Assembly: GCF_014218725.1 (NCBI RefSeq)
Contig: NZ_JABBJE010000004.1
Coordinates: 186,001 to 250,000, forward strand
DNA: 64,000 bases
Reading direction: 5' to 3'
Origin: Brevundimonas huaxiensis
GTDB lineage: Bacteria > Pseudomonadota > Alphaproteobacteria > Caulobacterales > Caulobacteraceae
Shown: positions 2,182-21,392 of the stretch, in pieces
Layout of the letters: each line of letters starts with the position of its first letter
Numbering within the stretch: the first letter of the stretch is position 1
Translations under genes and position numbers: made by a program
Notes under the pieces: model-generated
What the model saw: the letters and a program-made list of their open reading frames with translations, nothing else
What the model was told of the DNA's origin: nothing
Databases searched by the model: none

Positions 2182-2296
2182 ACGCTACGTCCCTATAACC
2201 ATGAAGCTATTACCACAGCCCGGGGGCTGCTATAGCGGATGGATGCGCGCGCGTCGATTGTGAACGGGTGGGCGCCGAAGATGCGGCGGGGCTGGA

Positions 2297-2983: not shown

Positions 2984-3465
2984 TGCGTTTTGGTCCTCTT
3001 TTCGTGGTGCTGTTCCTGGTTGGCGTCTTTTTGCTGGGGTGGCAGAACCCCAATGAGCCGGAGGAGCCGCCGTCTGTGCGCCGTGGCGGTCTTGGACAGG
3101 ACACCTTGGTGCTCAGGCCCGGAGAAAGTGCAGCCGCGGCAGTCCGGTTTCTGAGAACGCTCCGTTCCGACCCGCCCCCGCCTGCTCCGCCGCCGCCTCC
3201 GCCGCCCCCGCCGCCGCCTCCGCCGCCTCCGCCGCCGCCTGATGTGTCGGTGGTCTTCAAACAGGCGCTTCGGGGTGTAGAGCGCAACCCTGCAACCGGA
3301 TCATTGGCGGCGCTGGTGAGCGATCCTGCCGCGCCGGGGCCGCAAATCCAATCTATCGTCGTCGGTGATCGGTTCGGAGACGGGTGGCGAATCGAAGAGA
3401 TCACAGAAAGCGCCGTCACATTGCGAAAGGGCCGCGAAACGCGCGTGGTCCGTCTGTACGGCTGA
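2983..3465 (+). CDS. gspC: GspC-like T2SS protein with a long polyproline linker
   Basis: Small bitopic protein of 160 residues: an N-terminal transmembrane helix (about 5-20), a Pro-rich region at about 63-86 that includes an unbroken run of roughly 18 prolines, and a C-terminal beta domain (VGDRFGDGWRIEEI) resembling the GspC homology region or PilP-type domain. Placed directly before the secretin gene, as GspC normally is, it would couple the inner-membrane platform to GspD across the periplasm. There is no PDZ domain, unlike classical GspC, so GspC is a functional inference. The proline run is encoded by alternating CCG/CCT/CCC triplets, a site open to in-frame length change. Confidence 0.65.
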   Translation: MRFGPLFVVLFLVGVFLLGWQNPNEPEEPPSVRRGGLGQDTLVLRPGESAAAAVRFLRTLRSDPPPPAPPPPPPPPPPPPPPPPPPDVSVVFKQALRGVERNPATGSLAALVSDPAAPGPQIQSIVVGDRFGDGWRIEEITESAVTLRKGRETRVVRLYG

Positions 3466-3483
3466 GGCGCGCAGGAGTTGTCT

Positions 3484-5841
3484 ATGTCCAAGTTGTTCAC
3501 CGCCCCACGTATGAAGGGAACAGCCTCGTCGCTGATGGCGGCGGTTTGCCTGACGCCTCTGCTTCTGGCCGGTTGCGCCGCATTCCCGACGATGACCACC
3601 ACAACTCGCATGCCCGATCGTGCAGAAGATTCGCGCAGCGGCGGTGATGTTGTGCCGACCGGTTCTGATGCGGCTGTCGCCGGAGCACGCAACCCGTCAG
3701 AACGTCTGTCCATACCGACGCGTACTGCGCAGACACCCCAACGACCGCCGGCGACCGAAGCCGAAATCGCGGCGCTGCTGGCTGATGAGCCGGTCGATGC
3801 GACCTTGGCGCCGCAGTCTATCCCCCAATTCGCGGCGACCGTATTCGGCGGCGTTCTCAATGTGCCCTATTCTCTCAGCGGAGACGTGGCCACACGATCA
3901 GAGATCATTGCCGGCGGCACGGGCGGGACGATCAGCAAACGCGCTCTGTTTCGATTGACGCAACAGGCGCTGAAACAATACGGCATCGACGTCTATATCG
4001 ACGGCGGGGCGGTCACTGTCGGCGCTAGCCCCAATGGCGCGATCGGCAGCGAGATCGTTCGCAACCGAACAGCGCCCGCATCCTCCGGTCGCGTGGTCCA
4101 GTTCTTCAATGTTCAGACTATTGAAGTGAACGTGCTGCAGTCCTTGTTGGGCGATCTCTTCCCAAACCTTGGCGGCGCGCGGGTCACGCCGGATCCCCTG
4201 ACCAACAGCCTGATCATATCGGGCTCGGCGCGTGATGTGGCGCAGGTCGTTCGTACGCTCCGCGAAATCGATCAACCGCGCTTTGCCGGGGCTGATGTTC
4301 TTCGTGTCGAACCCGTCTACTGGGCCGCGGATGCGCTTGCGACATCGCTGGAGCAGACGCTCACCACCGAAGGCTACATCGTCAGCCGCCAGGCGCTGGC
4401 CGGTCGCTCAATCGTCATACTGTCCTTCCCGCAAGCCAATCAGATCCTCGTGTTCGCCAAGGATCCAGAGCTGCTGGAGCGCGTGAACTATTGGGTCGGC
4501 ATGCTGGATCGTCCGGCTGCGCTCGGCGACAAAGCGACCACCTTCGTCTACAACGTCCGCAATACGGACGCTCAGTCGCTGGGCCAACTGGCCATGGGTC
4601 AGGCGCCGACGACAAACCAACCTCAGCCGCCCGTCGGTGTTCCCGGCACGCCGGCCGTCACGGTTGGAGACAGCGCCGCGCCTCGGCAAGGCGGCCAGAT
4701 GTCCAGCACTGGAAGCAGTGCTCAGCAAGGCGCCTCCGGGACATTCCTGGGAGGCCGTCTGCTGACGGACCCCATCGGCAACCGCATCATCTTCACCGGT
4801 ACGGCCGGAGATTATGCTCAACTGCGCACCCTGCTGTCGACGTTGGACACACCGGCGCCTCAGGTCGTGATCGAGGTCATGATCGCCGAAGTCACGCTGA
4901 CCGACGGCACGGACATCGGCGTCAATCTCTTCGGCACTGAGACGCGCGGCGACGGCGTTCTGAGCGGATCGACAGAAGGTTTGACGCTGAAAGGCGCAGC
5001 GGGCGTGTTCAACTTCATCGGTCCGGATTTTAGGGCTCGGATCGTCGCCAGCGCATCGAACAACCGCGTCAGCATTCTCCAGCGGCCTCAGCTCGTAACG
5101 CGCAGCGGGGGAACGGCGCGTTTCCAAGTCGGAACCGACGTGCCGATCATCTCGTCGCAACGCGCGTCGAACAGCAACTCTAACGGCGACACCGACATTC
5201 TCCAGAGCGTGCAGTATCGTCAGACGGGCACCATTCTCGAGATTACGCCCGTGGTCTATGGGGACCGGGTGGACATCAGCATCAGCCAGGAACTGTCCTC
5301 CGCAGGCGCGCCGCCGGCGGGCACCAGCATCTCCAGTCCGACGATCTTGAACCGAAGCCTGACGACGCAGATCGCCATCAAGGATGGATGGACCGGCGTC
5401 CTAGGCGGCCTCATCGGCAACAACTACACGAAGGCGAATACAGGCATACCCTTCCTGAAGGACATTCCGATCATCGGCTCGGCCTTGCAGAGCAATTCGA
5501 TCAGCGGTGAACGAACCGAGCTTCTGCTCCTGATCACGCCCTACATCGTGCGTGGCGACGATGATATGGCGGACTTCGCCGACCAGTACGCCGGCAATAT
5601 GAATGCCGCGTTCCGAACCGGTCGCGGCTGGTCCTATACCCTGACTCCGTGGTCGATCAGTCCGAGATTCAGGGGATTGGGCCTGGATCTTCCCAGCCCC
5701 CTGCCTGCTTCCGAAACGCCTTCGCTTCTGCCGCCGCGCGGTCGGCCGGTCGCTGCACCGGCAGAGCCGATGGTTGGCGAAGAGTCGGTCGCGCCTGCAA
5801 GCACGCAGGAGCCCGTCACGGCGCCGGTGACGACGCCTTAA
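3484..5841 (+). CDS. gspD: Type II secretion system secretin GspD
   Basis: Outer-membrane secretin that forms the export channel. The 785-residue product starts with a lipoprotein-type signal (LLLAGC, Cys near residue 31), followed by N-domains with the expected internal repeats, a Gln/Ser/Gly-rich insertion at about 370-420, and a C-terminal secretin domain (VVIEVMIAEVTL; VLGGLIGNN near the end). The ATG at 3484 has a GGAG site 6 nt upstream; a TTG at 3478 is less likely. The lipobox suggests outer-membrane targeting by its own acyl group. The stop overlaps convergent gspI by 4 nt (TTAA). Confidence 0.95.
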   Translation: MSKLFTAPRMKGTASSLMAAVCLTPLLLAGCAAFPTMTTTTRMPDRAEDSRSGGDVVPTGSDAAVAGARNPSERLSIPTRTAQTPQRPPATEAEIAALLADEPVDATLAPQSIPQFAATVFGGVLNVPYSLSGDVATRSEIIAGGTGGTISKRALFRLTQQALKQYGIDVYIDGGAVTVGASPNGAIGSEIVRNRTAPASSGRVVQFFNVQTIEVNVLQSLLGDLFPNLGGARVTPDPLTNSLIISGSARDVAQVVRTLREIDQPRFAGADVLRVEPVYWAADALATSLEQTLTTEGYIVSRQALAGRSIVILSFPQANQILVFAKDPELLERVNYWVGMLDRPAALGDKATTFVYNVRNTDAQSLGQLAMGQAPTTNQPQPPVGVPGTPAVTVGDSAAPRQGGQMSSTGSSAQQGASGTFLGGRLLTDPIGNRIIFTGTAGDYAQLRTLLSTLDTPAPQVVIEVMIAEVTLTDGTDIGVNLFGTETRGDGVLSGSTEGLTLKGAAGVFNFIGPDFRARIVASASNNRVSILQRPQLVTRSGGTARFQVGTDVPIISSQRASNSNSNGDTDILQSVQYRQTGTILEITPVVYGDRVDISISQELSSAGAPPAGTSISSPTILNRSLTTQIAIKDGWTGVLGGLIGNNYTKANTGIPFLKDIPIIGSALQSNSISGERTELLLLITPYIVRGDDDMADFADQYAGNMNAAFRTGRGWSYTLTPWSISPRFRGLGLDLPSPLPASETPSLLPPRGRPVAAPAEPMVGEESVAPASTQEPVTAPVTTP

Positions 5842-6260
5842 GCTCCCTCGCCGACCATTCGTCGCCAACCCATACGGTCGAAGACCAAGGCGGCTGGCGA
5901 GCGACCATTGCGCCGCTCGATCTCCACCGTGACGGTGAAGAGCTGGACCTGGAAAGTGCCGTCTCCCGTTGGAAAGCCGGCATTGGTCCGGCTTTCCGTC
6001 TTGGGGCTTGAGGTCCAGCGTATGACGTCGCCCTCGGGCAGCGTGATCGTTCCGGAGGGTTGGTCCATCGGATTGATGTCGCGGGTCAAGGCCAAGGCGT
6101 TTTCCTGGGCGGCGACCTGTTCCATCACATCGGCGGCGCGGCGTTGTCCGCGGATCATCTGCTGCTGAAGCTCGAAGATCGCGGTCAATGTCATCGCGGC
6201 GATCGCCAGCGCCACAAGCGCCTCGATCAGGCTGAAGCCTTCGCGACCACGCCTGATCAA
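5838..6260 (-). CDS. gspI: T2SS minor pseudopilin, GspI-like
   Basis: A 140-residue prepilin-like protein with cleavage site REG/FSLIEALVALAI and Glu at +5. Length and the Gln/Glu-rich helix after the hydrophobic core (FELQQQMIRGQ) fit GspI better than the longer GspJ. GspI bridges the major pseudopilin to the K-J tip. The start is TTG at 6260, overlapping the TGA of gspF, so the two are probably translated as a unit. It is the last gene of the E-F-I minus-strand block. Confidence 0.75.
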   Translation of the reverse strand: MIRRGREGFSLIEALVALAIAAMTLTAIFELQQQMIRGQRRAADVMEQVAAQENALALTRDINPMDQPSGTITLPEGDVIRWTSSPKTESRTNAGFPTGDGTFQVQLFTVTVEIERRNGRSPAALVFDRMGWRRMVGEGA

Positions 6261-7462
6261 ACGACACCTTCGTAGACGCTGGACAGCGCCAGCACCAAGG
6301 ACAGGGCGACGAAGCCGACGATCAGCGAGATCGCGCCGATGGCCGCCGGCTCCAATAGCGACGTCATGCGTTTCATGCTGTCACGCAGGCGGTTTTCGTA
6401 GTTGTCCGCCATGAAGCCGAACATGGCTCCGATCGCGCCCGAACGCTGGCCCGCGCGCAGCAGGCTGAGGTCCATCGCTTCCAGTTTGGTGTGAGCCGCC
6501 AGAGACGCATCCAGCGTCAGGCCGGCCTTCAGATCGTTTTCGAGCCGGTTCAGGCCTTGCCTGAAGGGCCCGATCGGGACGGCGGCACGCGCCAGGGCGA
6601 CGGCCGACAGGATCGGCACACCGTTCACCAGGGCGAAGGACGTCAGTCGCGCCCAGGCTGCGATTTCGCGCGCCTGCAGCACGCCGCCCACGACCGGCAG
6701 GCCATGCGCCAGCGTATAGGCCCGCGCCTTGATCGCGGGATTGGTGGCGATCACGACGACCAGGGCGATCAGGGCGCCGAGCCCGATGCCGATTACGCCT
6801 ATGTTGGCGTTGGCGAACTCGCCGGCGGACAACACCCAGCGCGATACGGTCGGCACGCGACTGCGGTCTTCGCCGATCATGGCGCCGAAGCGCGGCACCA
6901 CCTGGGTGAAGATGAAGGCGACGGCGCCCAATCCGGCCATCAGCAGGAAGGCCGGATAGGTCATCGCATTGCCGAAATCCTTCCGCAGCCGATCCTCATA
7001 GGCCATTTGCTCTGCAGCCTGTTTGAGCACTTCGGCGACGCGACCCGAGGCTTCGCCCACACGCGCCATGGCGTACAGATAGTCGGGAAAGCCCGGAACG
7101 TGTTCCTCCAAGGCCTTGCCCAGCGAATCGCCGCGTCGCAGGGCGGCGATGGCGGCCAGGAATTGTTCCTTGCCTTTCCGCGACTGCATGCCCTGCGCAA
7201 CCGTATCCAGCGATTCCAGCAGCGAAACGCCGGCCTCCAGCATCAGGCCCAGCTGCCGCAGGACCAGCACCCGCTCACCCGACTTCAAGGGCCGGTTCTG
7301 GCCTTCGCCTTGCGCGGCTGCGGCGGGCGACACCTTCAGGACCGTCAGGCCTTCGGCCGACAGCCGCCGCACCAGCGCGGCTTCATTGGGCGCGGTCAGC
7401 ACGCCCCGGGACATCGCACCCTGGCGATCGATCGCCTGATACTGGAAAGCCTGCGGCGTCAC
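6257..7462 (-). CDS. gspF: Type II secretion system protein GspF
   Basis: Polytopic inner-membrane platform protein. The 401 residues show two tandem T2SSF domains (GERVLVLRQLGLMLEAGVSLLESL, and later WARLTSFALVNGVPILSAV) separated by membrane helices, with a C-terminal helix ending LVLALSSVYEGVV. The length is normal for GspF/PilC. The GTG start lies 2 nt after the gspE stop and the end overlaps gspI, so E-F-I is one operon. Confidence 0.95.
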   Translation of the reverse strand: MTPQAFQYQAIDRQGAMSRGVLTAPNEAALVRRLSAEGLTVLKVSPAAAAQGEGQNRPLKSGERVLVLRQLGLMLEAGVSLLESLDTVAQGMQSRKGKEQFLAAIAALRRGDSLGKALEEHVPGFPDYLYAMARVGEASGRVAEVLKQAAEQMAYEDRLRKDFGNAMTYPAFLLMAGLGAVAFIFTQVVPRFGAMIGEDRSRVPTVSRWVLSAGEFANANIGVIGIGLGALIALVVVIATNPAIKARAYTLAHGLPVVGGVLQAREIAAWARLTSFALVNGVPILSAVALARAAVPIGPFRQGLNRLENDLKAGLTLDASLAAHTKLEAMDLSLLRAGQRSGAIGAMFGFMADNYENRLRDSMKRMTSLLEPAAIGAISLIVGFVALSLVLALSSVYEGVV

Positions 7463-7464: not shown

Positions 7465-9219
<1,755 letters not shown>

Positions 9220-9289: not shown

Positions 9290-10204
9290 CTAACCCGTTG
9301 AAGCGAAGAACAGACGCGGAACCGCAGGGTGTGTGATCCGGCCTCTCAAAAGCGGCATCGTCTGGACGCGGCCGTAAGGACGTCCGACCAAGGCCTCATA
9401 CTCCTGGGCAAAGAGGTCACCCAATGACCGGCCGGCTTCGGCTTGACGTCGGATGCCACCCGCTTGTGTGGTCGCCCCGTAATGCAACTGGTGGAATGTG
9501 CCTTCCCCGACCAGCATGATGAAGCCGTCTCCAGCAGCGTCAACCGCCCGGCGAAAGAAGTCGAAACTGGCGAAGCCGCCGCCCAGCTGCACGAAATCCT
9601 CATTGTATCCGCCGATCGCTTCGAACATGGCTTTGCGCATGACGAAGAACGTCGTCTCGGTCGGGGGGGCAAGAACCCCCATGGCGTAGCTTTCACCGAG
9701 GGCGCAGATTTCGAAGAGGCGATAGCCGTCGCCGTTCGGCCAGTCGATGTCGGCCAGCAGGCGGTCCTCGACGTCACGGCTGTAGCCTTCTTCGACTGAA
9801 ATCTGCTGAACCTTGGGGCCGAGATGAAAACCGAGCGTCGCGACGAAGGCGTCGGGGCTTGAGCCGGCCGCGTCCAGAGCGGCGCGGACCATGCCGGGCG
9901 ACACCATTCGCGCGCCGTCGATCATCAGCGCGATATGGTCTGCACGCGCCAGCGCGACGCCGCGATTGATGGCGCGACAGGGGGATACGCCGCCGTCATC
10001 GACGCGCAGGATCTGAATGTCCGCCTCTTGTGAAAACAGGTCGCGGGTCACGGGCTGGGCCGAGCCATTGTCTACGACGATGATTTCGACGTCCTCAATC
10101 TCCAGACCGCGCTGATAAGGCGGAAGAAGAGAGGTGACGGTGCGCGGCAACTCGCGCGCCATGTCGAAACCGATGACGATGACCGAAAGGGCCGGCCGCT
10201 TCAT
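9290..10204 (-). CDS. Family 2 glycosyltransferase
   Basis: Predicted GT-A fold glycosyltransferase of 304 residues. N-terminal LSVIVIGFDM and EIIVVDNGSAQPV are the nucleotide-sugar binding strands of GT2. The position of the usual DxD is occupied by MIDGAR, so metal binding may differ. C-terminal GGYNEDF is the acceptor-side motif common in this family. The start at 10204 overlaps the sulfotransferase stop (ATGA), so the two are co-translated. Donor and acceptor cannot be told from sequence. It is the first gene of the glycan island beside the T2SS. Confidence 0.85.
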   Translation of the reverse strand: MKRPALSVIVIGFDMARELPRTVTSLLPPYQRGLEIEDVEIIVVDNGSAQPVTRDLFSQEADIQILRVDDGGVSPCRAINRGVALARADHIALMIDGARMVSPGMVRAALDAAGSSPDAFVATLGFHLGPKVQQISVEEGYSRDVEDRLLADIDWPNGDGYRLFEICALGESYAMGVLAPPTETTFFVMRKAMFEAIGGYNEDFVQLGGGFASFDFFRRAVDAAGDGFIMLVGEGTFHQLHYGATTQAGGIRRQAEAGRSLGDLFAQEYEALVGRPYGRVQTMPLLRGRITHPAVPRLFFASTG

Positions 10205-10899
10205 TGCGCGGCGTCCTGTAGCGCCGCCCAAAGGTCGGCGACAGAGGCTGGCACGGCGGCGTTGATCTTCTGGTGGTTCAACTCATCCGAGCGGAAGGGC
10301 ATGGGCGCTGCGGCGTTCAAACCCAATCCCGCCGCGACGCGTCGGACGCGGGCTTCGTAGTCGTCCGCATCGTAGTCGATGACGGAGAATGGCGTCAGGT
10401 CGCGCCACCGAAGGACGGCACGATTGTATCCGGTCCAGATGGCAAGGGACCGCGCCTGATCGAACCCGTTGCGCGCCGCCAGAGAGCCCGCGACGGCGAG
10501 GGGGTGGCGGATGGAGGCGACCAGCTTCAAATCCGGTAGAACTTCAAACCACCCGTCCAGCAAGAGCGTGGCGCGGGGATCCTTGAAGCCCCAAGGCGTC
10601 GGCAGGGTATCGTAGTCGGCCAACACCGCTTTCAGATCGGCGATCTCGCTCGCGGTCCAGGCGACGGGCGTGTTGGGCGGCGCATCCCAGGCGGCGCCGA
10701 CGCGGGCCAGGACAGCGTCGTGGACGGGCCAGAACCGGGGGTTCTCGCGATTGCCCTTCTTGTTGTGCGGTGCGGCGGTATTCACCGCGCCAAGATGCAG
10801 GCCCAAATCCTCAAGACACCCCGCCAGGCAGGACGTCCCGGATCGATGCATGCCGATCACGGCGACGGGCGAGGGGCTTGAAGCGGGCGTCATGGACAT
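10201..10899 (-). CDS. PAPS-dependent sulfotransferase family protein
   Basis: A 232-residue sulfotransferase-like protein. GMHRSGTS at residues 16-23 is the 5'-phosphosulfate loop and IRHPLAVAGSLAARNG is the 3'-phosphate-binding Arg/Ser segment. It would transfer sulfate from PAPS to a cytoplasmic sugar or lipid-linked acceptor. It precedes and overlaps the GT2 gene. A second copy of the family lies at 21448-22188 with the same motifs at nearly the same residue positions. The acceptor is unknown; a surface glycan is suggested by context only. Confidence 0.85.
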   Translation of the reverse strand: MSMTPASSPSPVAVIGMHRSGTSCLAGCLEDLGLHLGAVNTAAPHNKKGNRENPRFWPVHDAVLARVGAAWDAPPNTPVAWTASEIADLKAVLADYDTLPTPWGFKDPRATLLLDGWFEVLPDLKLVASIRHPLAVAGSLAARNGFDQARSLAIWTGYNRAVLRWRDLTPFSVIDYDADDYEARVRRVAAGLGLNAAAPMPFRSDELNHQKINAAVPASVADLWAALQDAAQ

Positions 10900-10942: not shown

Positions 10943-10973
10943 AAAAAAAAGGGAGGGCCGAAGCCCTCCCTTT
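10943..10973 (-). terminator. Rho-independent terminator of the lysine-free surface protein gene
   Basis: The arms GGGAGGGC (10951-10958) and GCCCTCCC (10963-10970) form a perfect 8-bp stem with a CGAA loop, extended by flanking A:T pairs. Read on the minus strand it is followed by a run of eight Ts (10943-10950 as A on the plus strand). It starts about 18 nt after the stop of the minus-strand gene ending at 10992. Confidence 0.92.
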
Positions 10974-10991
10974 CCGATCAATGTGCGGTTC

Positions 10992-12482
10992 TTAAGGCAC
11001 GTTGACTGCGTTTTGGTCGTTTGCAACCGTTCCGCTTTCGAACTCGGTCACAGAACCATTCGCCAGAGTAGCGTAGCGACGAGCGGTGATCGTAGCGCTC
11101 GGAGCTTCGACCGAAATCTGGACGTCGCCGCGGCCCCACTCACCCAATGCGCTGGTCAACGCTGCAGTCGTAACCACCAGTTCGCCGTTAGCGGCGATGG
11201 ACGGCGCGATTTGCACAGGTGCCGCAGCCGGGGTGTAACCCGTAGCGGAGTTAACCGAGTTCAATACTTGCGCAAACACCGGGCCCGTAGCGCCCGAGCT
11301 GATGTTGCCCAGACGGATGACGTTATTGGTGCCCGTGCGAGCCTGAACTGCGCTCGAGTTCATCCACGGCATGACAACGTTCGTACCGTCGCGACCGATT
11401 GTTTCCAGAGCGCCGGAGACAGGGCCTTCTTGCGTGTAGTAGGTGCTGTCAAGCACGTACGAAACGGTAGCCGAGTAGGAGGAGCTGGCGATCGGACCGC
11501 CATCGGCGTTGACGCGGAAAGCCACAGAGCCAGCCGTCAGTGCCGCTTGCTGGTTGTTGATAGCTGCTTGAGTTGCGGCGGCATTGACGGTCGCAGCAAC
11601 GGCACCCAGCGTGACACCGCCGCCAGGACCGTTGAACGCATTGAAGTTGCCCGTGACGAGAACGTCCGCATCTTGAACGTCCGTAGCAGCGACCGGGGTG
11701 TTAGCCAGGTCGCGACGAGCGGTCGTATCGACGGCGATCGTGATCGTGCCGAGTTGAGCCTCGTCTGTCGACTCGGAGGGAGTGGTGTGGCCGCCAGCGC
11801 CAACGAAGAAGGTCGTATAGACCGGCGAGGTGGTGAGGGTTGCGAACGTATCGTTCAGGGCGCCGGCGCCAATGGCGCCATCGATGACGACGTTGAACGC
11901 GTTGACGCGATCAACGATCTGAAGAGCCTCTTGGTTTGCTGCAAGCGCGCCAAACGGATTGCCTGCCGGTTGCACTTGAGCGGTGTCGGGATCGATGGGG
12001 GTGCCGCTTTCGGTGCGGAGAGTGGTTCTCGCCCACACGTCTGCGCCTGCGTTGGGGGTTACAGGCAGGTCGAGATCGACACTACCGCAGCCCGCGCCAG
12101 CCGACGAAATCAGGAAGGTTGCCGAGGTCGAGCCAGCAGCGCCGCCCGAAGACAGAACGGTCGTGCAGCCGGCAGCCACTACGTTGGCCGAGGTCACGCC
12201 GGTCGCGAACGTACCACCGGCCAGGTCGATAGTGATGAGGTTGTTGCCCGACGGGAACGTCGAGGTGCCCGACAGGTCAGCAAGCAGGGCGAAGGTGCCA
12301 CCCGCGGTGCTCACAGCTTCTTCCGCCAGGCGGTATCCGGTTGCGCCGACGCCGGTGGTTCCCGCATCAATGTCCGTCGTGGATGCGGTAGCCGCACGGA
12401 AGGTCAGGGTGTGCGCGCTAGCCGCACCTGCCGTAGCCATGACGGACATAGCCGCCGCAGCCAAAAGAAGATTCTTTTTCAT
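10992..12482 (-). CDS. Secreted lysine-free Ala/Thr/Ser/Gly-rich protein, S-layer candidate
   Basis: A 496-residue exported protein. It has a Sec signal peptide of about 23 residues (MKKNLLLAAAAM... ending AASA/H). The mature part contains no lysine, only two cysteines (in AAGCTTV and GAGCGS, about 25 residues apart, likely a disulfide), and is rich in Ala, Thr, Ser, Gly and Val with an excess of Asp/Glu, the composition usual for S-layer and other abundant surface proteins. I recognise no domain. The ATG at 12482 has a GAGGGA site 8 nt upstream. It is monocistronic: own terminator, long upstream region and a candidate promoter. It stands between the T2SS locus and a glycan gene cluster. Function is inferred; a fimbrial or matrix protein is also possible. 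Confidence 0.7.
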   Translation of the reverse strand: MKKNLLLAAAAMSVMATAGAASAHTLTFRAATASTTDIDAGTTGVGATGYRLAEEAVSTAGGTFALLADLSGTSTFPSGNNLITIDLAGGTFATGVTSANVVAAGCTTVLSSGGAAGSTSATFLISSAGAGCGSVDLDLPVTPNAGADVWARTTLRTESGTPIDPDTAQVQPAGNPFGALAANQEALQIVDRVNAFNVVIDGAIGAGALNDTFATLTTSPVYTTFFVGAGGHTTPSESTDEAQLGTITIAVDTTARRDLANTPVAATDVQDADVLVTGNFNAFNGPGGGVTLGAVAATVNAAATQAAINNQQAALTAGSVAFRVNADGGPIASSSYSATVSYVLDSTYYTQEGPVSGALETIGRDGTNVVMPWMNSSAVQARTGTNNVIRLGNISSGATGPVFAQVLNSVNSATGYTPAAAPVQIAPSIAANGELVVTTAALTSALGEWGRGDVQISVEAPSATITARRYATLANGSVTEFESGTVANDQNAVNVP

Positions 12483-12592: not shown

Positions 12593-12622
12593 CTTGTATC
12601 CTGTCGCAAACAGAAACGTCAA
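12593..12622 (-). promoter_or_regulatory. Candidate sigma-73 type promoter of the surface protein gene
   Basis: On the minus strand TTGACG (12622-12617) matches the Caulobacter housekeeping -35 consensus. An 18-nt spacer leads to TACAAG (12598-12593), a weak -10. A transcript from here would have a 5' leader of about 105 nt before the ATG at 12482. The stretch 12483-12895 (413 bp) holds no convincing gene; apart from this promoter and the Shine-Dalgarno sequence I see nothing else defined in it. Confidence 0.35.
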
Positions 12623-12895: not shown

Positions 12896-13552
12896 ATGCC
12901 CATCAATCGCTACGTGGACGAGGACGTTACCCGTCGCCGCATCGAAACAGAGGGACATCGGAGTGTTGTGGGTGGGCTCTGGGACGTTATGGGCGCGCTC
13001 CAACGCGACTTTTTGATTTCTCGCGGCCTTCAGCCCGGGCATGATCTGCTGGATATCGGGTGCGGATCGCTTCGCGCCGGCAAGCCTCTGGTGGCCTGGT
13101 TAGAGCCGAGCCGCTATTACGGGATCGATATCTCGGCCTCTTTGATCGAGGCGGGCTATACGAACGAGATCGTCGCGGCTGGTTTTGCCGACCGACTGCC
13201 GCGGGAAAACCTGTTCGTGACGTCGGATTTTGGAATCCCATTCGACATCTGTTTCGATGCCGCGATTGCGACCTCCGTCTTCACGCACCTGACTCTGGAT
13301 TATCTGACGCGGTGTCTGGAGCGCCTGCATCCCGCTATGAAGCCTGAGGGCCGGTTTTATGCGACATTTTTTGAAGGCGAAGGCGTCAGCCTTAACCGTC
13401 CGGATGGCGTCGTCACCCACCCTGACCGTGATCCCTTCCATTTTTCGCAGGCCCAAATCCGAGCCGCCACGCCCGAGAACTGGGCGTTTGAGTGGATTGG
13501 CGATTGGGATCATCCGCGCGATCAGAAAATGGCCTGCTTCATTCGCCGGTAA
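12896..13552 (+). CDS. Class I SAM-dependent methyltransferase
   Basis: A 218-residue Rossmann-fold methyltransferase. Motif I is LLDIGCGSLRAG (about residues 51-62), followed by the acidic strand end YYGIDIS and the motif IV-like region FDAAIATSVFTHL. The ATG at 12896 is the first start after upstream stops. It reads away from the surface protein gene and converges with the GT-D gene 2 nt beyond its stop. In this setting it may methylate a sugar (O-methylation, chain capping), but nothing in the sequence fixes the substrate. Confidence 0.85.
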   Translation: MPINRYVDEDVTRRRIETEGHRSVVGGLWDVMGALQRDFLISRGLQPGHDLLDIGCGSLRAGKPLVAWLEPSRYYGIDISASLIEAGYTNEIVAAGFADRLPRENLFVTSDFGIPFDICFDAAIATSVFTHLTLDYLTRCLERLHPAMKPEGRFYATFFEGEGVSLNRPDGVVTHPDRDPFHFSQAQIRAATPENWAFEWIGDWDHPRDQKMACFIRR

Positions 13553-13554: not shown

Positions 13555-14520
13555 CTAGCTGTCGGCGATCTTAAAGCGATCGACGAATTCAGGGCTGTGA
13601 TAGTTTCGAACCGCCTTGCCGCGCCAGACATCGACGACGCTGCCGATATCCAGTGCGACCGCGCCTTGCAGTTGAGCGTGGCGGCACAACGCTTTGCCGA
13701 GCAATCCGGCAGCCACAAGGGTCAGGACGCCGGGCCCCACTTTCATATTTTCCAGCAAGCGGTCGTATGCGTCTGGAAACCACTTCGCGCCTTCGCCTGG
13801 GGTCGACGAGGCTTGGTTCGGAATCGTCAGCGTCCGAACTTTCTGAATACCGAATGCCTGTTGAAGCGCCGAGGACAGATCGTATGGGCCGATCAGGAGT
13901 ACCTCGTCGGCCTGCGAAGCGATGGACGCGTAGAAGTCCATCAAATAGCGGTGGATGTGGTTGCTGACAATCAGTCGTCGGCGTGGCTGCGACGCCTGAA
14001 GCGTCTTATCCACCTGAACGATCGATTCGTACGAGCCCATGTATCCTCGCACATCAGAACGGCCGTCCGGTGATTGACGTAAGGCTTCAAGTCTTCCAAC
14101 GCGGACCCAGTCTGAAACGCCGAGAATGTCAGCGTTCACCAGAGCCTCAATCATATCGAACCGCATGCGGAGAAGCTCCGCGTTTGAAAAGCCTGACGTG
14201 GCGAACATCATGTTCAGAATTTCACGCGTCGAATGATTCCTAGCGTCTCGGAAGTGGGGCTCAAACGCACCAAGAATATTCCCCTCGCCGTCGCCGATCC
14301 TGACCAAGGACAATGCAACCCTTCGCTCGAGGGCATCGATCACAAGGTCCTGAGCGAGCGAGGCCCCACTCTCAGCCAGGTCGGCGTGATGTCCGAATGC
14401 CTCAACACGCTTTAGAGCGAGAGACAGACGGTCGATCGTCGTTGAAGCCAAGTAATGACCATAGCTGTTCGCCGCCGCCTCCGCCGAAACAACCGGCTGG
14501 TCGAATGAATGTATGCGCAT
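13555..14520 (-). CDS. GT-D fold (DUF1792-like) glycosyltransferase
   Basis: A 321-residue protein with the GT-D signature SLVRIGDGEG at about residues 71-80 and the C-terminal segment LTLVAAGLLGKALCRHA...ALDIGSVVDVW, which matches the end of GT-D/DUF1792 domains. Members add a hexose to glycoprotein glycans or polysaccharide in other bacteria. The N-terminal 55 residues are outside the domain. It is encoded alone on the minus strand between the methyltransferase and the TPR-headed block. The family call is from pattern memory, so moderately sure. Confidence 0.7.
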   Translation of the reverse strand: MRIHSFDQPVVSAEAAANSYGHYLASTTIDRLSLALKRVEAFGHHADLAESGASLAQDLVIDALERRVALSLVRIGDGEGNILGAFEPHFRDARNHSTREILNMMFATSGFSNAELLRMRFDMIEALVNADILGVSDWVRVGRLEALRQSPDGRSDVRGYMGSYESIVQVDKTLQASQPRRRLIVSNHIHRYLMDFYASIASQADEVLLIGPYDLSSALQQAFGIQKVRTLTIPNQASSTPGEGAKWFPDAYDRLLENMKVGPGVLTLVAAGLLGKALCRHAQLQGAVALDIGSVVDVWRGKAVRNYHSPEFVDRFKIADS

Positions 14521-14578
14521 GATGAGACAGTTTCTCGTCGTTCAGACTATTTCCATCTTAAAATGAAGCCCGGCTGAA

Positions 14579-14809
14579 TTGGTCAGCCCCAGGCAAGATG
14601 CGAACATCGTAGTGACTGTGTCGCCTTTCGAGCGCGCTCTGCGTGCAGCTTTTGTGAAATGCAAAACGTCGCATACGATACCGATCGACTTCATTGTCGC
14701 GACGCCGTCGTGCAATCACGGGCGTCCTCATCTCTGGGAGCACGGGATCAGCCACGAAATGACGCTGACGGTTCCGCTGGTCCTGCGCTATCGCGGCCGG
14801 CCGGTTTAG
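14579..14809 (+). pseudogene. Possible remnant of a protein-coding gene
   Basis: The 296-bp gap 14521-14816 contains a frame ending at 14809 whose last 45 residues look protein-like rather than random (IPIDFIVATPS, PHLWEHGISHE, TLTVPLVLRYRG). The only start is a TTG inside a stretch without a Shine-Dalgarno site, and I recognise no family. It could be the 3' end of a gene lost when the glycan island was rearranged, or chance. No other feature is visible in the gap. Confidence 0.22.
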
Positions 14810-14816
14810 GCGCAGC

Positions 14817-15638
14817 CTATCGCAGTCGTGAGGTGTCCAGCGCTGGATGGACGTGTTGTAGGCAGATCCGGATCTGCTCCAGCACATGATCCTCTGAGCC
14901 TGCCCAGCCTTCGGTTTCCATGCGCAGCATCCGGGCCAGCGAGAACTGTTCCGCCGCCTTGCTGAACTGTTGAGCCAGTTGCAGCGCATTGGCGTATTGC
15001 AGCCGCGCTTCATAGGCCAGAGGTCCGCCATCCACCGTGACCGCCTGAAGATAGCGGCCATACAGGTCCACGGCCTCGTCGAGACGGCCCTGTTCCTTGA
15101 CCGCATGGGCCAGCACCAGCAGGTAGTTGGGCCGTCCGGCGTCAACGAGCGCTCTCAGGCCCGTCTCGGCGGCAGCCCATCGGCCTTGCGCCATGGCCGT
15201 CATGGCGTCGTCGATGCGACCCTGCCACGGGGCATCGGCCGCGCGCGTTCTGCCGATCCGCAGCGCCTCTGCGATCGCGCGGTCGTTGAGGGCGAGTTCG
15301 GCTGCGCGTTCATAATAGGCGAGGGATTCCTCCGCCTGGCCCTTGACCCAGAAGAAGTGACCGATCTGGACATTCAGATCCGCGTCGTCGGGCTTCTGCT
15401 TCAGCGCCTGGAAATAGGCGGCCTGTGCGCCCTCAAGGTCGCCGGCCTCCTTCAGCATATGACCCAGCTGCACACGCGGGCCGAAGCCGTCCTGAAGCTG
15501 AAGGGCGCGCCGGTAAAGGTCGGCGGCCCCGCGCCAGTCGTGTTGCAGCTTCGCGGCCTTGGCCGCTTGAAGGATCTGTTTTCGCGCGCTCGCCGACCGT
15601 GCCTTGCGAATGCGCTTGAACAAAGCGGCGAGCGTCAT
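14817..15638 (-). CDS. Tetratricopeptide repeat protein
   Basis: A 273-residue cytoplasmic protein, without signal peptide, built of helical TPR units (WRGAADLYRRAL, GDLEGAQAAYFQALKQKP, GQAEESLAYYERA, GRLDEAVDLYGRYL, QFSKAAEQFSLA). The N-terminus is strongly basic (RIRKARSASARKQ). It is the last gene of a four-gene ATGA-coupled operon with two glycosyltransferases and a DUF4214-like protein, so it is probably a scaffold for glycan synthesis or export. No enzymatic motif is seen. Confidence 0.85.
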   Translation of the reverse strand: MTLAALFKRIRKARSASARKQILQAAKAAKLQHDWRGAADLYRRALQLQDGFGPRVQLGHMLKEAGDLEGAQAAYFQALKQKPDDADLNVQIGHFFWVKGQAEESLAYYERAAELALNDRAIAEALRIGRTRAADAPWQGRIDDAMTAMAQGRWAAAETGLRALVDAGRPNYLLVLAHAVKEQGRLDEAVDLYGRYLQAVTVDGGPLAYEARLQYANALQLAQQFSKAAEQFSLARMLRMETEGWAGSEDHVLEQIRICLQHVHPALDTSRLR

Positions 15639-16552
15639 TCGGCGATCCAGGTCAAGCTGACTTCCTGCGGCTTGACGATCCAGGCCGCGTCATCCGCTTC
15701 GCCTTTGCGGATTGCGAAGATCAGCAGTTCGAACACTAGATGTTCCGGCAGGATCGTGAATTCGGACGCGAAACCGGCCTGGCCTGCAAAGGTCATGGAG
15801 AACAGCTTCTCCAAACCGCCGTTCACAGTGGCCTCGAAGCAGATCGCAGAGTCGGGATGCTGCTCCCAGTTCACGTTCAGCCTCCAGCGACCGGCGCGCA
15901 GCGACTTCTTGGGCCCGGCGAAAACCAGTCCTGGTTCAAGGCCCAGCCCGCCTGCCTGATAGACCGCGTTCTCGGTCAGACCGCCGTCGGCGACCATGAG
16001 GCCGCGCTCGCCCAGCGACAGCATGAGCACAAGACGTTCTCTTCGCTCGGCCGAAACGAGCGAGAAGGGCGTATCGCCCATGATCCGCGCAACGGTCGGA
16101 TTTCGGCCCTCGGCGCGCGCCATGTCGATGATCTCGCGGATCACGTCCGAGCGACTGGAACCCGAGTTCAGACGATTTCTCAGAGCCAACCGCTCATGCA
16201 TCTGCAGATCACGACCGATCAGGCGATAAGCGGCGTAGTCCACAAAGATCGTATCGTCATCCGGGGCATGACCGATCAGAACTTCTTCCGTGGCGATCTC
16301 GTCGTCGGGCCGCACGAGGGCCGTGGGAACCGTTGGCGGCGCAGCCGCAGGAACGCCGATGGCGCGCGCCTGGATCGCCGCCCAGATCTTGGACTTGTTG
16401 ACGCCCCGCATGATGGACTGGGTCAAGGCATTGGCGTCTCTGGGCGTCACAGAGGTCGCACCTAGGGTTTCGATTGCGGCGCGGACAAAGGACGCCGCGG
16501 GAAGGCTCATCAACTCGGCGGGAATGGCTGCGGGATCGCGCGGCGTCGACAT
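15635..16552 (-). CDS. Glycan-cluster protein with a DUF4214-like domain
   Basis: A 305-residue protein without signal peptide. Residues about 100-150 (VDYAAYRLIGRDLQMHERL, then LNSGSSRSDVIREII) resemble the DUF4214/phycobilisome-linker-like unit, and an earlier half-unit lies near 20-65. The C-terminal 100 residues are beta-rich (WRLNVNWEQHPDSAICFEATVNG) and unrecognised. DUF4214 units commonly occur in surface-protein and glycosyltransferase contexts. It overlaps both neighbours (TGATG and ATGA), indicating joint translation with the GT4 and TPR proteins. Function unknown. Confidence 0.6.
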   Translation of the reverse strand: MSTPRDPAAIPAELMSLPAASFVRAAIETLGATSVTPRDANALTQSIMRGVNKSKIWAAIQARAIGVPAAAPPTVPTALVRPDDEIATEEVLIGHAPDDDTIFVDYAAYRLIGRDLQMHERLALRNRLNSGSSRSDVIREIIDMARAEGRNPTVARIMGDTPFSLVSAERRERLVLMLSLGERGLMVADGGLTENAVYQAGGLGLEPGLVFAGPKKSLRAGRWRLNVNWEQHPDSAICFEATVNGGLEKLFSMTFAGQAGFASEFTILPEHLVFELLIFAIRKGEADDAAWIVKPQEVSLTWIAE

Positions 16553-18756
16553 CAAGAAATCCTCATCAAATTGGCGGCGCGTTGGCTGACGACATCCCAG
16601 CTGTGGGTCTCGGCGTAACGTCGGCGCGCCCGATCATGCAGCGTTCTGACGGCGTCATCCTGCGCCAGTCCCAGCAAGGCCTCAGCCAGCGTCTCGACAT
16701 CCAGTCTCCGCACCAGATGGCTGAAGGGCCAGAGATCGCGAAACACGCCCGAACTCGACAGCAAGGTCGGACGGTCGAGGGCGATCGCCATGCGCGCGGC
16801 GCCCGAGGCGCCTTCGGGCGAGGGACCGTAGGGGAAGGCCAACAAATCGCACGGCGCAAGCAGCTTCACGATCTCTTCGTCCGGCAGGAATTCGAAATTC
16901 GTCGACACCGAATCCTGCAGATTCATTGAACGAATGAGCGCCTCCACGCGGGTGCGAGCCACGCGGCTTTGCCGCTCCACCCTTTGAGCGTTCGCCAGCA
17001 CCAGACAAATGCGAGGATCCGAACGACGGGCCTGAGCCACGGCGCTGACGAGGAGTTCCAGGTTCTTGTGTTCGGTCAGAAATCCAAAACTGCCGACGAC
17101 GAACTTGTTCGGGTCGGTGCGATGGGGGGTCGCCAGGATCCGGACTCCATGCGGCAGAACTTCGCCGCGATAGCCGGCCCGACCCAACTCTTCGACGTCT
17201 TCGGCCGAGTGCGCAACGATGACGTCAAAGCCGCGGAGCCAATCGGCTCCTGACTGCAATGTCTCTTTGACGTTGTGCAGCGTGATTATAAGTCTTTCAC
17301 GACCTCGACGCAGCGCGGGCGTTACCCTCCGCATGTCGTCAGCCGAGAAATATCCTGGATGGTGTTGAAACCACAGGACGGGCGCCTTGGCGTCATTGCC
17401 CACCTTGTCGGCGAAACGCTGCAGCGATACGCCGTCGTAGCCCCATAGCCGTGTGACGCCCTCCTCAATCGCGCCTGGATCAGCCGGCTTGAGAGAGCGC
17501 CGGGCCCACACGTGAGCCAGTCCGCTGGACAACCGGGTTTGCCCGAACAACTGCTCCGAGTAGGTCGCCAGACCGCACTCTTCATTCCAGGTTGATACGA
17601 CTTCGAAGGAAGGCGATGGCGAAGTGACGGCCGACGGCGAACCGGCGAGCGCGGAAACCACGCGGCCGGCGACGGCATCCCAAGTCAAGGACTCAGAGGC
17701 CAGCGTCTTGGCGTTCGAAGCCAGGCGGCGGGTCGTCTCCGGGGCATCTATAGCCACCTTTAGCGCGCTCACGAAGCTCTGTCTTTCAGGCTCTTCCCAA
17801 AGGCCATAGGCCGACGCGACGTGAGACTGTGATTTTGCAGGATGGCTTTCGACCAGCAGGGCGGTCTGCTCGGTGCAAAAATCAGCCTGACCGCCGACCC
17901 TGGCCGCCACCACGGGTATGCCGAGGTGCATCGCCTCGGCCAGTGGAAGTCCGAATCCTTCACCGCGGCTTACCAAAACCACCGCCGTTGCGCTCTTGTA
18001 AAGCCGACCGATACCGGCCGCATCGAGCTTGGACTCATCTATGATGATGTGAGGCGGATATTTAAAACCCGCCCTAACATCTTCGACAATGCGACCGATC
18101 GCGTTGTGGGGGTTGGGGCTGGTCTTGATATAGAGCTCGACATCGTCACGCCCATCAAAAGCCTCGCAGTATGATGTGACCAAGGCCTCGGGCGCCTTTC
18201 GAGGCAGGCACGTCGAAATATGAAGCAGACGCTTGCGTTCGGTAGGAATGACTTGGCTACGAGCGTCGGCCAGAATTTGGTCTGCGCCGTTTCCGACCAT
18301 TGGGCAGGGGATTGTCACGCCTGATCGGCGGAGCGCCTCGGAAACATACTCGGCCGTCGTGAGAATGAAATCCAGATCCCGATTGAAGCGGGCCGCCATC
18401 AGCGCGGGAACTTCGCTTTCTTCCCATGCCCAGCACACAAGCCCGTTTCGTTTGCCGGACATGCCGTGCGTAACCGGTGGCCAGGCGTTACGCAGATGCA
18501 CGTCTACAGGTTCAGCATGCGACAAGGTCAGGCTTGCCAGACCTGCGCGATGAATTTCCCCATCGCCCTCATGTCGATCTGTGGGCAAAATCCTGACGTC
18601 CACCCCACGACGCAACAGAGCCGTGGCCAGGTTTCGGTTGACGATCGAAAGGCTGGCAAAGCCGCAAAACTGCCCTTCTATAAGGACGCGACCAATGGAA
18701 CAGGTCCGACCATGTTGCGGCCTCGCTAGCCCCTGTCGAGGCTGATCTTGCTTCAT
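16552..18756 (-). CDS. Bifunctional GT4-type glycosyltransferase (two GT-B modules)
   Basis: A 734-residue protein with two GT-B modules. The first (about 20-360) carries EGFGLPLAEAMHLGIPVVA, the E-x7-E donor-binding motif of family 4 transferases, preceded by LHISTCLPRKAPEAL. The second (about 375-734) has VVGSFGFLTEHKNLELLV and a weaker donor site (FPYGPSPEGASGAARMAIA). Two active sites could add two sugars in succession, as in other tandem GTs of polysaccharide loci. The ATG overlaps the stop of the large GT2 gene (ATGA). Confidence 0.85.
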   Translation of the reverse strand: MKQDQPRQGLARPQHGRTCSIGRVLIEGQFCGFASLSIVNRNLATALLRRGVDVRILPTDRHEGDGEIHRAGLASLTLSHAEPVDVHLRNAWPPVTHGMSGKRNGLVCWAWEESEVPALMAARFNRDLDFILTTAEYVSEALRRSGVTIPCPMVGNGADQILADARSQVIPTERKRLLHISTCLPRKAPEALVTSYCEAFDGRDDVELYIKTSPNPHNAIGRIVEDVRAGFKYPPHIIIDESKLDAAGIGRLYKSATAVVLVSRGEGFGLPLAEAMHLGIPVVAARVGGQADFCTEQTALLVESHPAKSQSHVASAYGLWEEPERQSFVSALKVAIDAPETTRRLASNAKTLASESLTWDAVAGRVVSALAGSPSAVTSPSPSFEVVSTWNEECGLATYSEQLFGQTRLSSGLAHVWARRSLKPADPGAIEEGVTRLWGYDGVSLQRFADKVGNDAKAPVLWFQHHPGYFSADDMRRVTPALRRGRERLIITLHNVKETLQSGADWLRGFDVIVAHSAEDVEELGRAGYRGEVLPHGVRILATPHRTDPNKFVVGSFGFLTEHKNLELLVSAVAQARRSDPRICLVLANAQRVERQSRVARTRVEALIRSMNLQDSVSTNFEFLPDEEIVKLLAPCDLLAFPYGPSPEGASGAARMAIALDRPTLLSSSGVFRDLWPFSHLVRRLDVETLAEALLGLAQDDAVRTLHDRARRRYAETHSWDVVSQRAANLMRIS

Positions 18757-21272
18757 GGTCGTTGTCCAATCCGCCCGCTGAACGCTGGCGGCGAAATATC
18801 CTCGAAAAAGCCCGCCGCCAGGTCCGGCGGCGGTCTCAGGCGACTAAAGGGCCGTGCGCGGCGGTCAAAATGGGGATTGTAAAAGGGATCAGGCAGCATC
18901 TTCTTGGACCACCTACGCCATAGACTCCCCAAGGCGCGCCTTGCCTCAGCGCGCGCGGTTTCGGTCGCCCCACAGCCACGCGTCTTCGACTCCAGATGAT
19001 AAAGAGTGGCGAAGGGCGTATAGATCACCGAGTAGCCGGCGTCTCGTGCTCTGAAGCAAAAATCCACGTCGTTGCCGTCGACTGGAAATTCCACGGCGTC
19101 AAAGCCGCCAAGGGCCAGAAATGTAGATCGGCGAACCGCCAGACATGCGCCGGTCACGGCAATCGTTTCGTGCGCTAAGGCATGGCGGCCCAAGTAACCG
19201 CCGTCACTACCCTCTTCCCCAACCCCCTCGTGCACAAGAAACTCGTTGGGGTCTTCCCTCGCCACGAAGCCGGCATGTTGTAGTGTGCCGTCCTCGTAAA
19301 GAAGGCGGCACCCCACAGCGCCAACTCCGGGCTGCAGGGCCCTGGAAGCAAGTTCGTCGAGCCAGTCGGGGCTTAAAACGATCGTATCGTTATTCAAGAA
19401 TATCAGAACGTCAGCGTCACACTGTTCGGCGGCGATATTATTCATAAGCGCCCAGTTGAACTCGCCATCATAGTCTATCGTGTGGATAAGACCGGACGCG
19501 TTGGCCTCGTTCAAGAATGAAATTGTTTCTTCGCAAACGCTCTGATGATTGACGACGACAACATCAACATGTGAAAAATTGAAAAGCCGACTATTGACGA
19601 TACTGTCGATGCAGGGCCGGACTAGATCCATGCGATCTTTCGTCGGTATGATGACTGCAACCTTACAAGGCTCTGGCGGAATTTTGACCCTGATGGCGCC
19701 CGTTAGGTTTTCCCCCAGTATATCGGAATGATTGACGATATATGCTTTCACGCTGAGAGTAGATAGATATGACTTTATCGTCGAAATCCATCCATTATCA
19801 TTGTTTGTCCATTTTATTGGCTTTGAATATAGCAAGGAAGGAATGTGTATTGCTTGTCCGTCTACGATAAGAGCCAGCGCGCTTTGCAGGGTTTGATTAT
19901 TACAATCCATCGGAATGGCGCGAATGGAATTCCAAAATGATCGTCTGAAAGAAACGGCGTTGCCGATGTAAGGGTTCTGGATTAGGAGTTCTCTGTCAAA
20001 CGACGGTTTGAAGTACGGCTGAGAATGGACTGTGATGCCGTCTTCATTTTCATAGTAGTGATCTTCATCGCAATATAACATATTCGCGTCTATGTTACTG
20101 TCGCCGTAGTAAGCGAATAAGGACAGGGCGTCGGGATGAAGGACCGCACCAGCCGACAGCACATGTACTAAATCAGCAAGCCTATTTATAGATAAGTCCT
20201 GTATCCAGTTTTCTTGTGGGCCAACATTCAAAACATCCACCAGAATTCCATTCTGGTTTCTTGCACGATCCGTTATTCCCAAAACCAACGCCGCATTTTC
20301 AGACGAGGTCACAACGGTTATGTAAAAGTGAGAATGCCTCTGAGCGATAATGCTACTAAGGGATCGTTCAATGTCATCGGCTGTCGAGCTGAGCCCATTT
20401 AGTACGACATGTATGCCTGTTCCGGAAAATTTATCCGGACCAATTTCGGCATCTCGCCTCCATCGATTGTAGTAGGCGTCGTATCCGACATTTGATTTCG
20501 AGTTAGATGACAATTCTATTTCGTCGAAACCGCCTCCGATTTCGGAACCAGGCATGATCTCCGTCGACGCAAAGAAGAGCCCGGTTAGGCAGTCCTTTAT
20601 GTCGACGTTGGAAAATCTGTGTCTGTTAAAATCTTGCGGCAAGGAAAATTCAAAGCCAACGCACGCATCAACTCCCAGTTGGTCCTCAAGATCAGGCCTG
20701 CGAACTGTCGCAGCCGTGCTACAGACGAATTTTCCGTTCAGCCAGCATTCTACGCGTAGCTGAGTTAGTCGGCGATCGTGGTGGACGACCCAGCCACGAA
20801 CAAATTTCGAGTCCGCATAATCTATGCGGCCTTCAAGGTTGGCCGCACTGTCCGCGATCTGACTTATCTTTTTTATCGCCGATACTGTCGGCATCGCGCC
20901 GATGTCTGCGAGGTCCCGGCTGGTGAGCACTGTTGCTATGATCTGAAGGTGGGTTCTGGCATTCGACAGGCGAAGGCGCTGCTCATCAGTGAACCTTAGT
21001 CGGCCGGCCGCCCAGGCCTTCAGATCGGACGCTGCTGTGGTATGTGCCGCGCGTGGAAGGCGGCCCTGCCGTATCGGCGCAAGTGAGTTGTGTTCGAATT
21101 CATCGGAAGATAGAAACTGAACAATAGTAGCGACTATTTCGTTTCCAGAAATCGCCTCAGCTGAAGCCGGTGTTTCGGGTTCGCGCAGCAGAAAAAGTCT
21201 GTAAAGATTTGAGGCATCCTCAACGGACACCATGCCAGTCGCTGTGTGATTTTCATCTGGCGATGATTTCAT
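18753..21272 (-). CDS. Large multidomain GT2 glycosyltransferase with a DUF4214-like N-terminus
   Basis: A protein of about 839 residues. The N-terminus (LYRLFLLREPET ... FLSSDEF) resembles a DUF4214 unit. Next is a beta-sandwich-like segment (EGRIDYADSKFVRGWVV ... VRRPDLEDQLG ... GFEFSLP) of the kind found beside GT2 domains. A degenerate GT-A-like part follows, then a canonical GT2 domain (VAVIIPTKDRMDLVRPCIDS, FLNNDTIVLSPDWLDEL, GGFDAVEFPVDGNDVDFCFR). I use the ATG at 21272; 21233 is an alternative and neither has a clear Shine-Dalgarno site. The 19.4-21.2 kb part is much more AT-rich than neighbouring genes, a sign of transfer. It leads the four-gene operon down to 14817. Confidence 0.8.
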   Translation of the reverse strand: MKSSPDENHTATGMVSVEDASNLYRLFLLREPETPASAEAISGNEIVATIVQFLSSDEFEHNSLAPIRQGRLPRAAHTTAASDLKAWAAGRLRFTDEQRLRLSNARTHLQIIATVLTSRDLADIGAMPTVSAIKKISQIADSAANLEGRIDYADSKFVRGWVVHHDRRLTQLRVECWLNGKFVCSTAATVRRPDLEDQLGVDACVGFEFSLPQDFNRHRFSNVDIKDCLTGLFFASTEIMPGSEIGGGFDEIELSSNSKSNVGYDAYYNRWRRDAEIGPDKFSGTGIHVVLNGLSSTADDIERSLSSIIAQRHSHFYITVVTSSENAALVLGITDRARNQNGILVDVLNVGPQENWIQDLSINRLADLVHVLSAGAVLHPDALSLFAYYGDSNIDANMLYCDEDHYYENEDGITVHSQPYFKPSFDRELLIQNPYIGNAVSFRRSFWNSIRAIPMDCNNQTLQSALALIVDGQAIHIPSLLYSKPIKWTNNDNGWISTIKSYLSTLSVKAYIVNHSDILGENLTGAIRVKIPPEPCKVAVIIPTKDRMDLVRPCIDSIVNSRLFNFSHVDVVVVNHQSVCEETISFLNEANASGLIHTIDYDGEFNWALMNNIAAEQCDADVLIFLNNDTIVLSPDWLDELASRALQPGVGAVGCRLLYEDGTLQHAGFVAREDPNEFLVHEGVGEEGSDGGYLGRHALAHETIAVTGACLAVRRSTFLALGGFDAVEFPVDGNDVDFCFRARDAGYSVIYTPFATLYHLESKTRGCGATETARAEARRALGSLWRRWSKKMLPDPFYNPHFDRRARPFSRLRPPPDLAAGFFEDISPPAFSGRIGQRP

Positions 21273-21392
21273 TGAACCGAAGCTGAATTTGATGTGAAGC
21301 AATAAGGCAGGGCGTCTGGTATGCCATGGCCGCTGCGAGATTCAAACTGTCAGGAAAGGGAAGGGCGCCGGCTCTTGTTTGCGAGACGCCCA

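Follow-up and report, generated by a model that had tools for sequence, protein, structure and literature searches.

What is the function of a secreted protein that contains neither lysine nor any recognisable domain, and whose gene lies between type II secretion system (T2SS) genes and genes for glycan synthesis? The question is raised by a gene, here called X, in the 3.16 Mb genome of Brevundimonas huaxiensis. Caulobacter is a textbook model for S-layers. We analysed X in a window of 64,000 nucleotides (G000:C4:186001-250000). According to the original prediction, X, the T2SS and the neighbouring sulfotransferase and glycosyltransferase genes form a surface-layer system with its own exporter and glycan anchor. 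The gene order, the homology to a gammaproteobacterial family and the nearby sulfotransferase-type genes support this proposal, which is still unproven.

The X gene and its neighbours

The open reading frame of X was predicted correctly (ATG at 12482, stop codon at 10992-10994), including the length of the mature part. The signal peptide cleavage site was set by eye, without SignalP. The mature protein of 473 residues has a computed mass of 46.8 kDa and a pI of 4.1, and is rich in Ala, Thr, Gly and Val. As had been claimed, it contains no lysine, does use arginine (14 residues), and has just two cysteines (residues 106 and 132). The features of the locus are collected in Table 1.

Table 1. Features of the X locus, with positions in the window
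Feature	Position	Strand	Basis
Unnamed protein; homologues stay at the cluster end in relatives	176..1252	+	gene order
Prepilin-type protein, GspH-like, below cut-off	1200..1739	-	profile match
GspG major pseudopilin	1678..2181	-	profile match
Unnamed protein; homologues stay beside gspG in relatives	2210..2860	-	gene order
Unnamed protein; homologues stay beside the secretin in relatives	2983..3465	+	gene order
Secretin, GspD-like	3478..5841	+	profile match
Prepilin-type protein, GspI-like, below cut-off	5838..6260	-	profile match
GspF inner-membrane protein	6257..7462	-	profile match
GspE secretion ATPase with N-terminal MshEN (c-di-GMP) motif	7465..9219	-	profile match
Family-2 glycosyltransferase (GT2), travels with the sulfotransferase	9290..10231	-	profile and gene order
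Sulfotransferase-like protein	10201..10899	-	Sulfotransfer_3, E 1.1e-5, 26.3 bits, just below the Pfam cut-off of 27
Intrinsic terminator after X: 13-bp stem, 4-base loop, T-run	10946..10975	-	terminator scan
X, secreted Ala/Thr/Gly-rich protein, 496 aa	10992..12482 (with stop codon)	-	ORF and translation
X, conserved C-terminal region	about 10995-11429	-	family alignment
X, mature part, without lysine	10995-12413	-	translation
X, signal peptide, 23 aa	12414-12482	-	cleavage after ASA, residue 23
Leader RNA of X: three-way junction, 11-bp closing stem, variable hairpin, hairpin capped by GAAA	12512..12587	-	covariation
Promoter-like boxes TTGAC ... GATACA, just before the leader	12595..12622	-	conservation in relatives
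SAM-dependent methyltransferase	12896..13552	+	profile match
Genes beyond X: GT-D-like, TPR, unnamed, double GT4, GT2-containing 849-aa protein	13555..21302	-	profile matches

The statement that X has no recognisable domain also holds. Pfam gave no match for X, and neither X nor its 24-row alignment matched a PDB chain at E<=1. The proposed profile search for kinship with RsaA therefore gave no indication of likeness to that protein (RsaA entry 5n8p, named in PMC7821379). Pfam and NCBIfam searches over 24 members of the X family found no enzyme family and no known adhesin domain, only sub-cut-off matches in single members. One of these, to the "phage structural protein" family NF047581, was dismissed as a chance match (E 0.0079, 16 bits against a cut-off of 80). 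Invariant residues are scarce in the family alignment, and most of them are Gly, Ala or single polar positions. AlphaFold models are strand-rich and of low confidence (pLDDT 40 with two sequences, 57 with three), and a fold search with the latter model returned nothing at E<=0.001.

The description of the secretion genes as a full T2SS is justified in part. A secretin, GspE, GspF, GspG and two further prepilin-type proteins could be recognised in the window, GspC, GspK, GspL and GspM were not identified in the cluster, and its three unnamed genes did not match any named T2SS component. GspE matches the MshEN family NF053729 over residues 22-74 (49.4 bits, cut-off 38). According to the available text of PMC5013675, the MshEN motif consists of two 24-residue motifs joined by a 5-residue linker. 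Compared with it by eye, the first half is intact in GspE and the second motif starts with Leu, not Arg, which makes c-di-GMP binding uncertain.

Among the 18 loci of the genus with a GspE of this type, homologues of the sulfotransferase and GT2 pair adjoin gspE in six (own, G113, G025, G036, G054, G124), and in seven (G075, G086, G085, G120, G078, G080, G025) a homologue of the methyltransferase separates gspE from gspF, G025 having both. Neither was present in the stretch read of G003, G097, G020, G052 and G076, and the locus of G088 is cut by the contig. Homologues of the GT2-containing 849-residue protein (18753-21302) also recur near X in relatives.

Relatives of X and their link to type II secretion

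A search with the single X sequence identified X or its relatives in 14 of 131 Brevundimonas genomes, including the own one, the others being 28-62% identical. GspE of the window type is encoded in 18 of the 131 (E<=1e-150), and all 18 have an X-type gene upstream of gspE on the same strand; in the four that the X search had missed, a divergent X occupies this slot. The arrangement was the same in 20 of the 20 loci measured by script (the 18 of the genus and two of genus g2). The distance from X to gspE is 76-662 bases in 18 of them, 1773 bases in the window, where the sulfotransferase and GT2 genes lie in between, and 1409 bases in G097, where there is an ORF on the opposite strand. At a contig end of a nineteenth genome, G071, the leader and the opening codons of an X gene are preserved; this genome has no gspE match. 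Four loci (L020, L023, L025, L031) share a small ORF of about 85-115 residues and similar sequence between X and gspE, which is absent from the window. In G036, a genome of one contig, the X locus occurs close to either end of contig 1 with identical scores (L030 1-14000, L031 2942001-2962000); this is probably an untrimmed overlap of a circular assembly.

Beyond the genus, the scan of the bacterial family gave solid matches in 14 of 299 genomes, and that of the class in 1 of 385, the own genome. These counts leave out 8 of 22 genomes in the family scan and 13 of 14 in the class scan, which had N-terminal matches of less than 100 profile positions and less than 25 bits, because such short matches were taken to be due to the signal peptide. 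Four of the class-scan loci concerned were inspected, and encode other kinds of protein. Genera g2 and g21 have the same linkage of X and T2SS. In G131, from another genus, three strongly diverged X genes stand in tandem (L112:7545-12956, minus strand), followed by the sulfotransferase and GT2 pair. Scanning the order with a merged profile yielded 5 of 200 genomes, of which two belong to the genus and the remaining three to other families of Caulobacterales. The proteins from these other families share 32-35% identity with X or with a close homologue (E 1.5e-33 to 1.7e-37); their genes lie no more than about 2 kb from gspE or the secretin gene. Methyltransferase and GT2 homologues are found near two of the three, and one also has a sulfotransferase homologue. 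A plasmid search with X gave no match.

A search for related loci with X as the query found nothing. With GspE as the query, the matches listed were mostly unrelated GspE proteins, plus L116 (the Brevundimonas MAG NZ_CALMFB010000070.1), L157 (Rhodothalassium) and L133 (Glaciecola); L117 has no X-like gene directly before gspE, and in L118 the same stretch reads as N. When a profile of 25 X sequences was compared with 4901 ORFs from 80 gspE loci, it matched L116, Rhodothalassium salexigens and Glaciecola sp. KUL10. In R. salexigens (L157:7152-8907, plus strand), the matches (E 6.9e-6 and 0.0023) fall in two frames situated about 1 kb ahead of gspE. This is a lead only, because the pairwise hhalign comparison is weak (42%). 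The split of this gene over two frames could be a natural frameshift or a sequencing error.

In Glaciecola, the X profile matches two neighbouring ORFs located behind the T2SS genes (E 1.3e-5 and 8.4e-5). Homologues of the first occur in 10 of 118 genomes of the gammaproteobacterial family concerned and in 3 of 398 genomes sampled across the phylum. The second (L133:16922-18352, plus strand) is a weaker X homologue, which directly follows the first in Glaciecola and in several gammaproteobacterial genomes. Aligned with the X profile, the gammaproteobacterial profile scored 98.2% (E 4.8e-14) over 414 columns. With the signal peptides removed, the score was 92.9; 30 column shuffles averaged 14.0 and never exceeded 19.1, and the reversed alignment gave 16.2. 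At the level of profiles, the X family is shown to be homologous to the gammaproteobacterial family over nearly its whole length.

All 11 gammaproteobacterial loci (Glaciecola plus 10 genomes) have the same gene order, with gspE, a second T2SS gene, several small genes, a gene of the size of gspK, the X homologue and a sulfotransferase-like gene; the names gspF, gspG and gspK are inferred there from the order. In each, the X homologue comes after gspE and other T2SS-type genes, at a distance within 2 kb, and the sulfotransferase-like gene comes next within about 6 kb. Three of the small Glaciecola genes encode a prepilin motif. The Glaciecola sulfotransferase-like gene matches Sulfotransfer_1 below the cut-off (E 0.0011), and the sulfotransferase of the window has no significant similarity to it (E 3.9). 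The gammaproteobacterial genome G749 also has a homologue of the window sulfotransferase (E 5e-23).

Leader RNA and expression of X

The long leader of the original prediction is present, and is conserved in relatives; in 13 X genes its core is very similar. A three-way junction is predicted by RNAalifold and also by folding the single sequence. In the 13 sequences, 93.6% of the cells pair, and among the 23 pairs there are 6 in which both sides vary. The covariation score of 0.210 compares with 0.130 in shuffles, none of which scored as high (0 of 500). The measure of further pair types is weaker (11 of 500), and in slid controls the paired share drops to 33-42%. Covariation is strongest in the variable hairpin, which is also the worst-pairing helix (77% of cells). 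The closing stem has one pair in which both sides vary, and in G036 this stem is one letter short on each side. The folding energy is no better than that of shuffles (z 0.42). We conclude that covariation supports a real leader structure.

A covariance model, run with stricter filters on the 131 genomes, returned the same 13 genomes only, with 14 places (G036 twice), each before X. As the 13 are the training sequences, the search shows just that no further copy turned up. The leader is missing from six X genes of the genus (G025, G076, G078, G080, G088, G120), the model gave one chance-level match in 26 other loci (E 0.73), and Rfam had no match at E<=1 in window positions 12400-12800. The leader RNA lies near the presumed transcript start, and would most simply serve as a 5' stabiliser of a long-lived mRNA.

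The promoter-like boxes before the leader were not reported by the consensus scan. The predicted terminator was found, in a scanned stretch where such sites are no commoner than in shuffles (3 against a mean of 3.7). The suggestion of a very abundant transcript is unsupported. The codons of X are only moderately adapted to those of ribosomal-protein genes (0.43 against 0.58-0.82), which puts X at rank 7 among 22 window genes. The reference was a set of 22 ORFs from one operon region, taken for ribosomal proteins on account of their lysine content. Codon usage gives no hint of extreme expression. The alanine codons of X (window 10995-12482) are unusual compared with ribosomal-protein genes, GCT and GCA being frequent, and the third-position GC content is 69% in X and 85% in gspE.

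A putative surface layer and its alternatives

In all likelihood short of certainty, X is a surface-layer protein, the structural subunit of the layer, and is exported by an adjoining T2SS of its own. X carries a Sec signal peptide, and would fold in the periplasm before passing the outer membrane through the adjoining T2SS, which looks dedicated to X because the two are constantly co-located. On the surface, X would build a lattice anchored to an envelope glycan, which the sulfotransferase, the glycosyltransferases and the methyltransferase may build or decorate. In view of the MshEN motif in GspE, export may respond to c-di-GMP. More generally, the X family probably consists of fast-changing, secreted surface-layer proteins beside their own type II secretion genes.

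S-layer proteins linked to T2SSs have a Sec signal peptide and are domain-less proteins of roughly 45-60 kDa, as is X, and their genes are constantly linked to one T2SS cluster, as is that of X in the 20 measured loci and in other families. In the case of Slr4 of Pseudoalteromonas tunicata, the available text of PMC7821379 describes a gene downstream of an adjoining T2SS operon, a predicted signal peptide cut at 23-24, a square lattice and a deletion mutant. X resembles Slr4 in its signal peptide of about 23 residues, in lacking a known domain and in the adjoining T2SS cluster, a position expected of the Slr4 family. It differs in being alphaproteobacterial, in having 473 instead of roughly 555 mature residues (calculated from 1,737 bp), and in its position upstream of gspE, whereas slr4 comes after the T2SS operon. 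The homology of X is to the gammaproteobacterial family with slr4-like gene order; that this family is the same as Slr4 is inferred from gene order, size and kinship of the hosts.

VapA and NpdA are further T2SS-linked S-layer proteins in the accessible part of PMC10765051. NpdA of Paracidovorax, compared by description alone, shares with X a signal peptide, the lack of domains in a protein of 52 kDa and the link to gsp genes, but is known from Beta- and Gammaproteobacteria (same source). VapA of Aeromonas, also compared by description alone, is an S-layer protein with a dedicated T2SS. RsaA, the S-layer protein of Caulobacter, comes from the same bacterial family as X, but is exported by a type I system (PMC7821379, text as available), and neither X nor its profile has a PDB match at E<=1. 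Slr4 orthologs are said to occur in Alphaproteobacteria in the accessible part of PMC10765051. The word Alphaproteobacteria is absent from the main text of the Slr4 paper (PMC7821379) as available, and some alphaproteobacterial members may already be listed in its tables. No paper in the open-access library searched, which leaves most subscription papers outside, mentions Brevundimonas, S-layer and type II secretion together, and the portion of it covered here contained no report of a Brevundimonas S-layer.

Alternatively, the T2SS may export X as an adhesive or biofilm-matrix protein, which would cover cells or surfaces but form no ordered lattice. Ordered and unordered coats are indistinguishable by sequence, Slr4 is also termed a major biofilm-matrix component in the title of a paper, and the strong divergence and the three tandem copies in G131 would fit an exposed adhesin or antigen. 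Against this, the gammaproteobacterial relatives have the gene order of slr4, whose product forms a lattice (PMC7821379, available text), and Pfam and NCBIfam detect no known adhesin domain in the family. We consider this possibility rather unlikely.

The best-known T2SS substrates are mostly released enzymes, and the T2SS could likewise release X as a soluble enzyme or binding protein of an ordinary kind. However, none of the 24 members matches a Pfam or NCBIfam enzyme family, and the few positions that never vary are mainly Gly, Ala and single polar residues. This explanation appears improbable.

The emphasis of the original prediction on lysine avoidance is not sustained by the family. At the mean lysine content of 22 neighbouring window proteins (2.3%), a lysine-free stretch of 473 residues has p about 1.4e-5. 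The four closest homologues of X have 21 lysines in 1904 residues (1.1%), which raises p to about 0.005 and places X in the tail of a lysine-poor family. The proposed survey of homologues yielded 1-25 lysines (0.2 to 5.2%) in each of 23 other distinct members from the same slot, so that zero lysine is not a family trait. Five members of the genus have 1-3 lysines and the gammaproteobacterial relatives 2-24. Homologues with 3-5% lysine, which according to the original prediction would tell against it if they had an enzyme fold, do exist, and no enzyme domain was found in the homologues. The composition of the family is lysine-poor and rich in Ala, Thr, Gly, Ser and Asn, with X as the extreme. 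The counts in the family and in its gammaproteobacterial relatives rule out a conserved adaptation, and the absence of lysine from X looks incidental, as a by-product of lysine-poor composition and fast divergence. It is thus highly improbable, in spite of the low p even at the rate of the closest homologues, that selection for resistance to proteases or chemicals, or for low synthesis cost, excludes lysine from X and defines its function, the more so as arginine is retained and trypsin sites therefore remain.

If X is a surface-layer subunit, as we prefer to think, the wider picture that we favour, with some reservation, is that Caulobacterales have a second, overlooked lineage of T2SS-exported S-layer proteins, homologous to marine gammaproteobacterial proteins that are T2SS-linked and of S-layer type. 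This lineage would not have been counted in a survey that, in the available part of PMC12700997, scored most Caulobacter relatives as lacking an S-layer on the basis of rsaADEF. The same picture includes a new class of leader RNA, found before this gene only and in Brevundimonas, a c-di-GMP motif in the exporter ATPase, and a sulfated surface anchor, which is indicated because sulfotransferase-type genes accompany X in both Alpha- and Gammaproteobacteria.

If X forms a layer, there would be a T2SS-based S-layer in Caulobacter's own family, and surface proteins of Alpha- and Gammaproteobacteria would be tied together by homology. The X locus is also a clean test case for a dedicated T2SS, with one exporter and one fast-diverging product, and for a gene-specific leader RNA.
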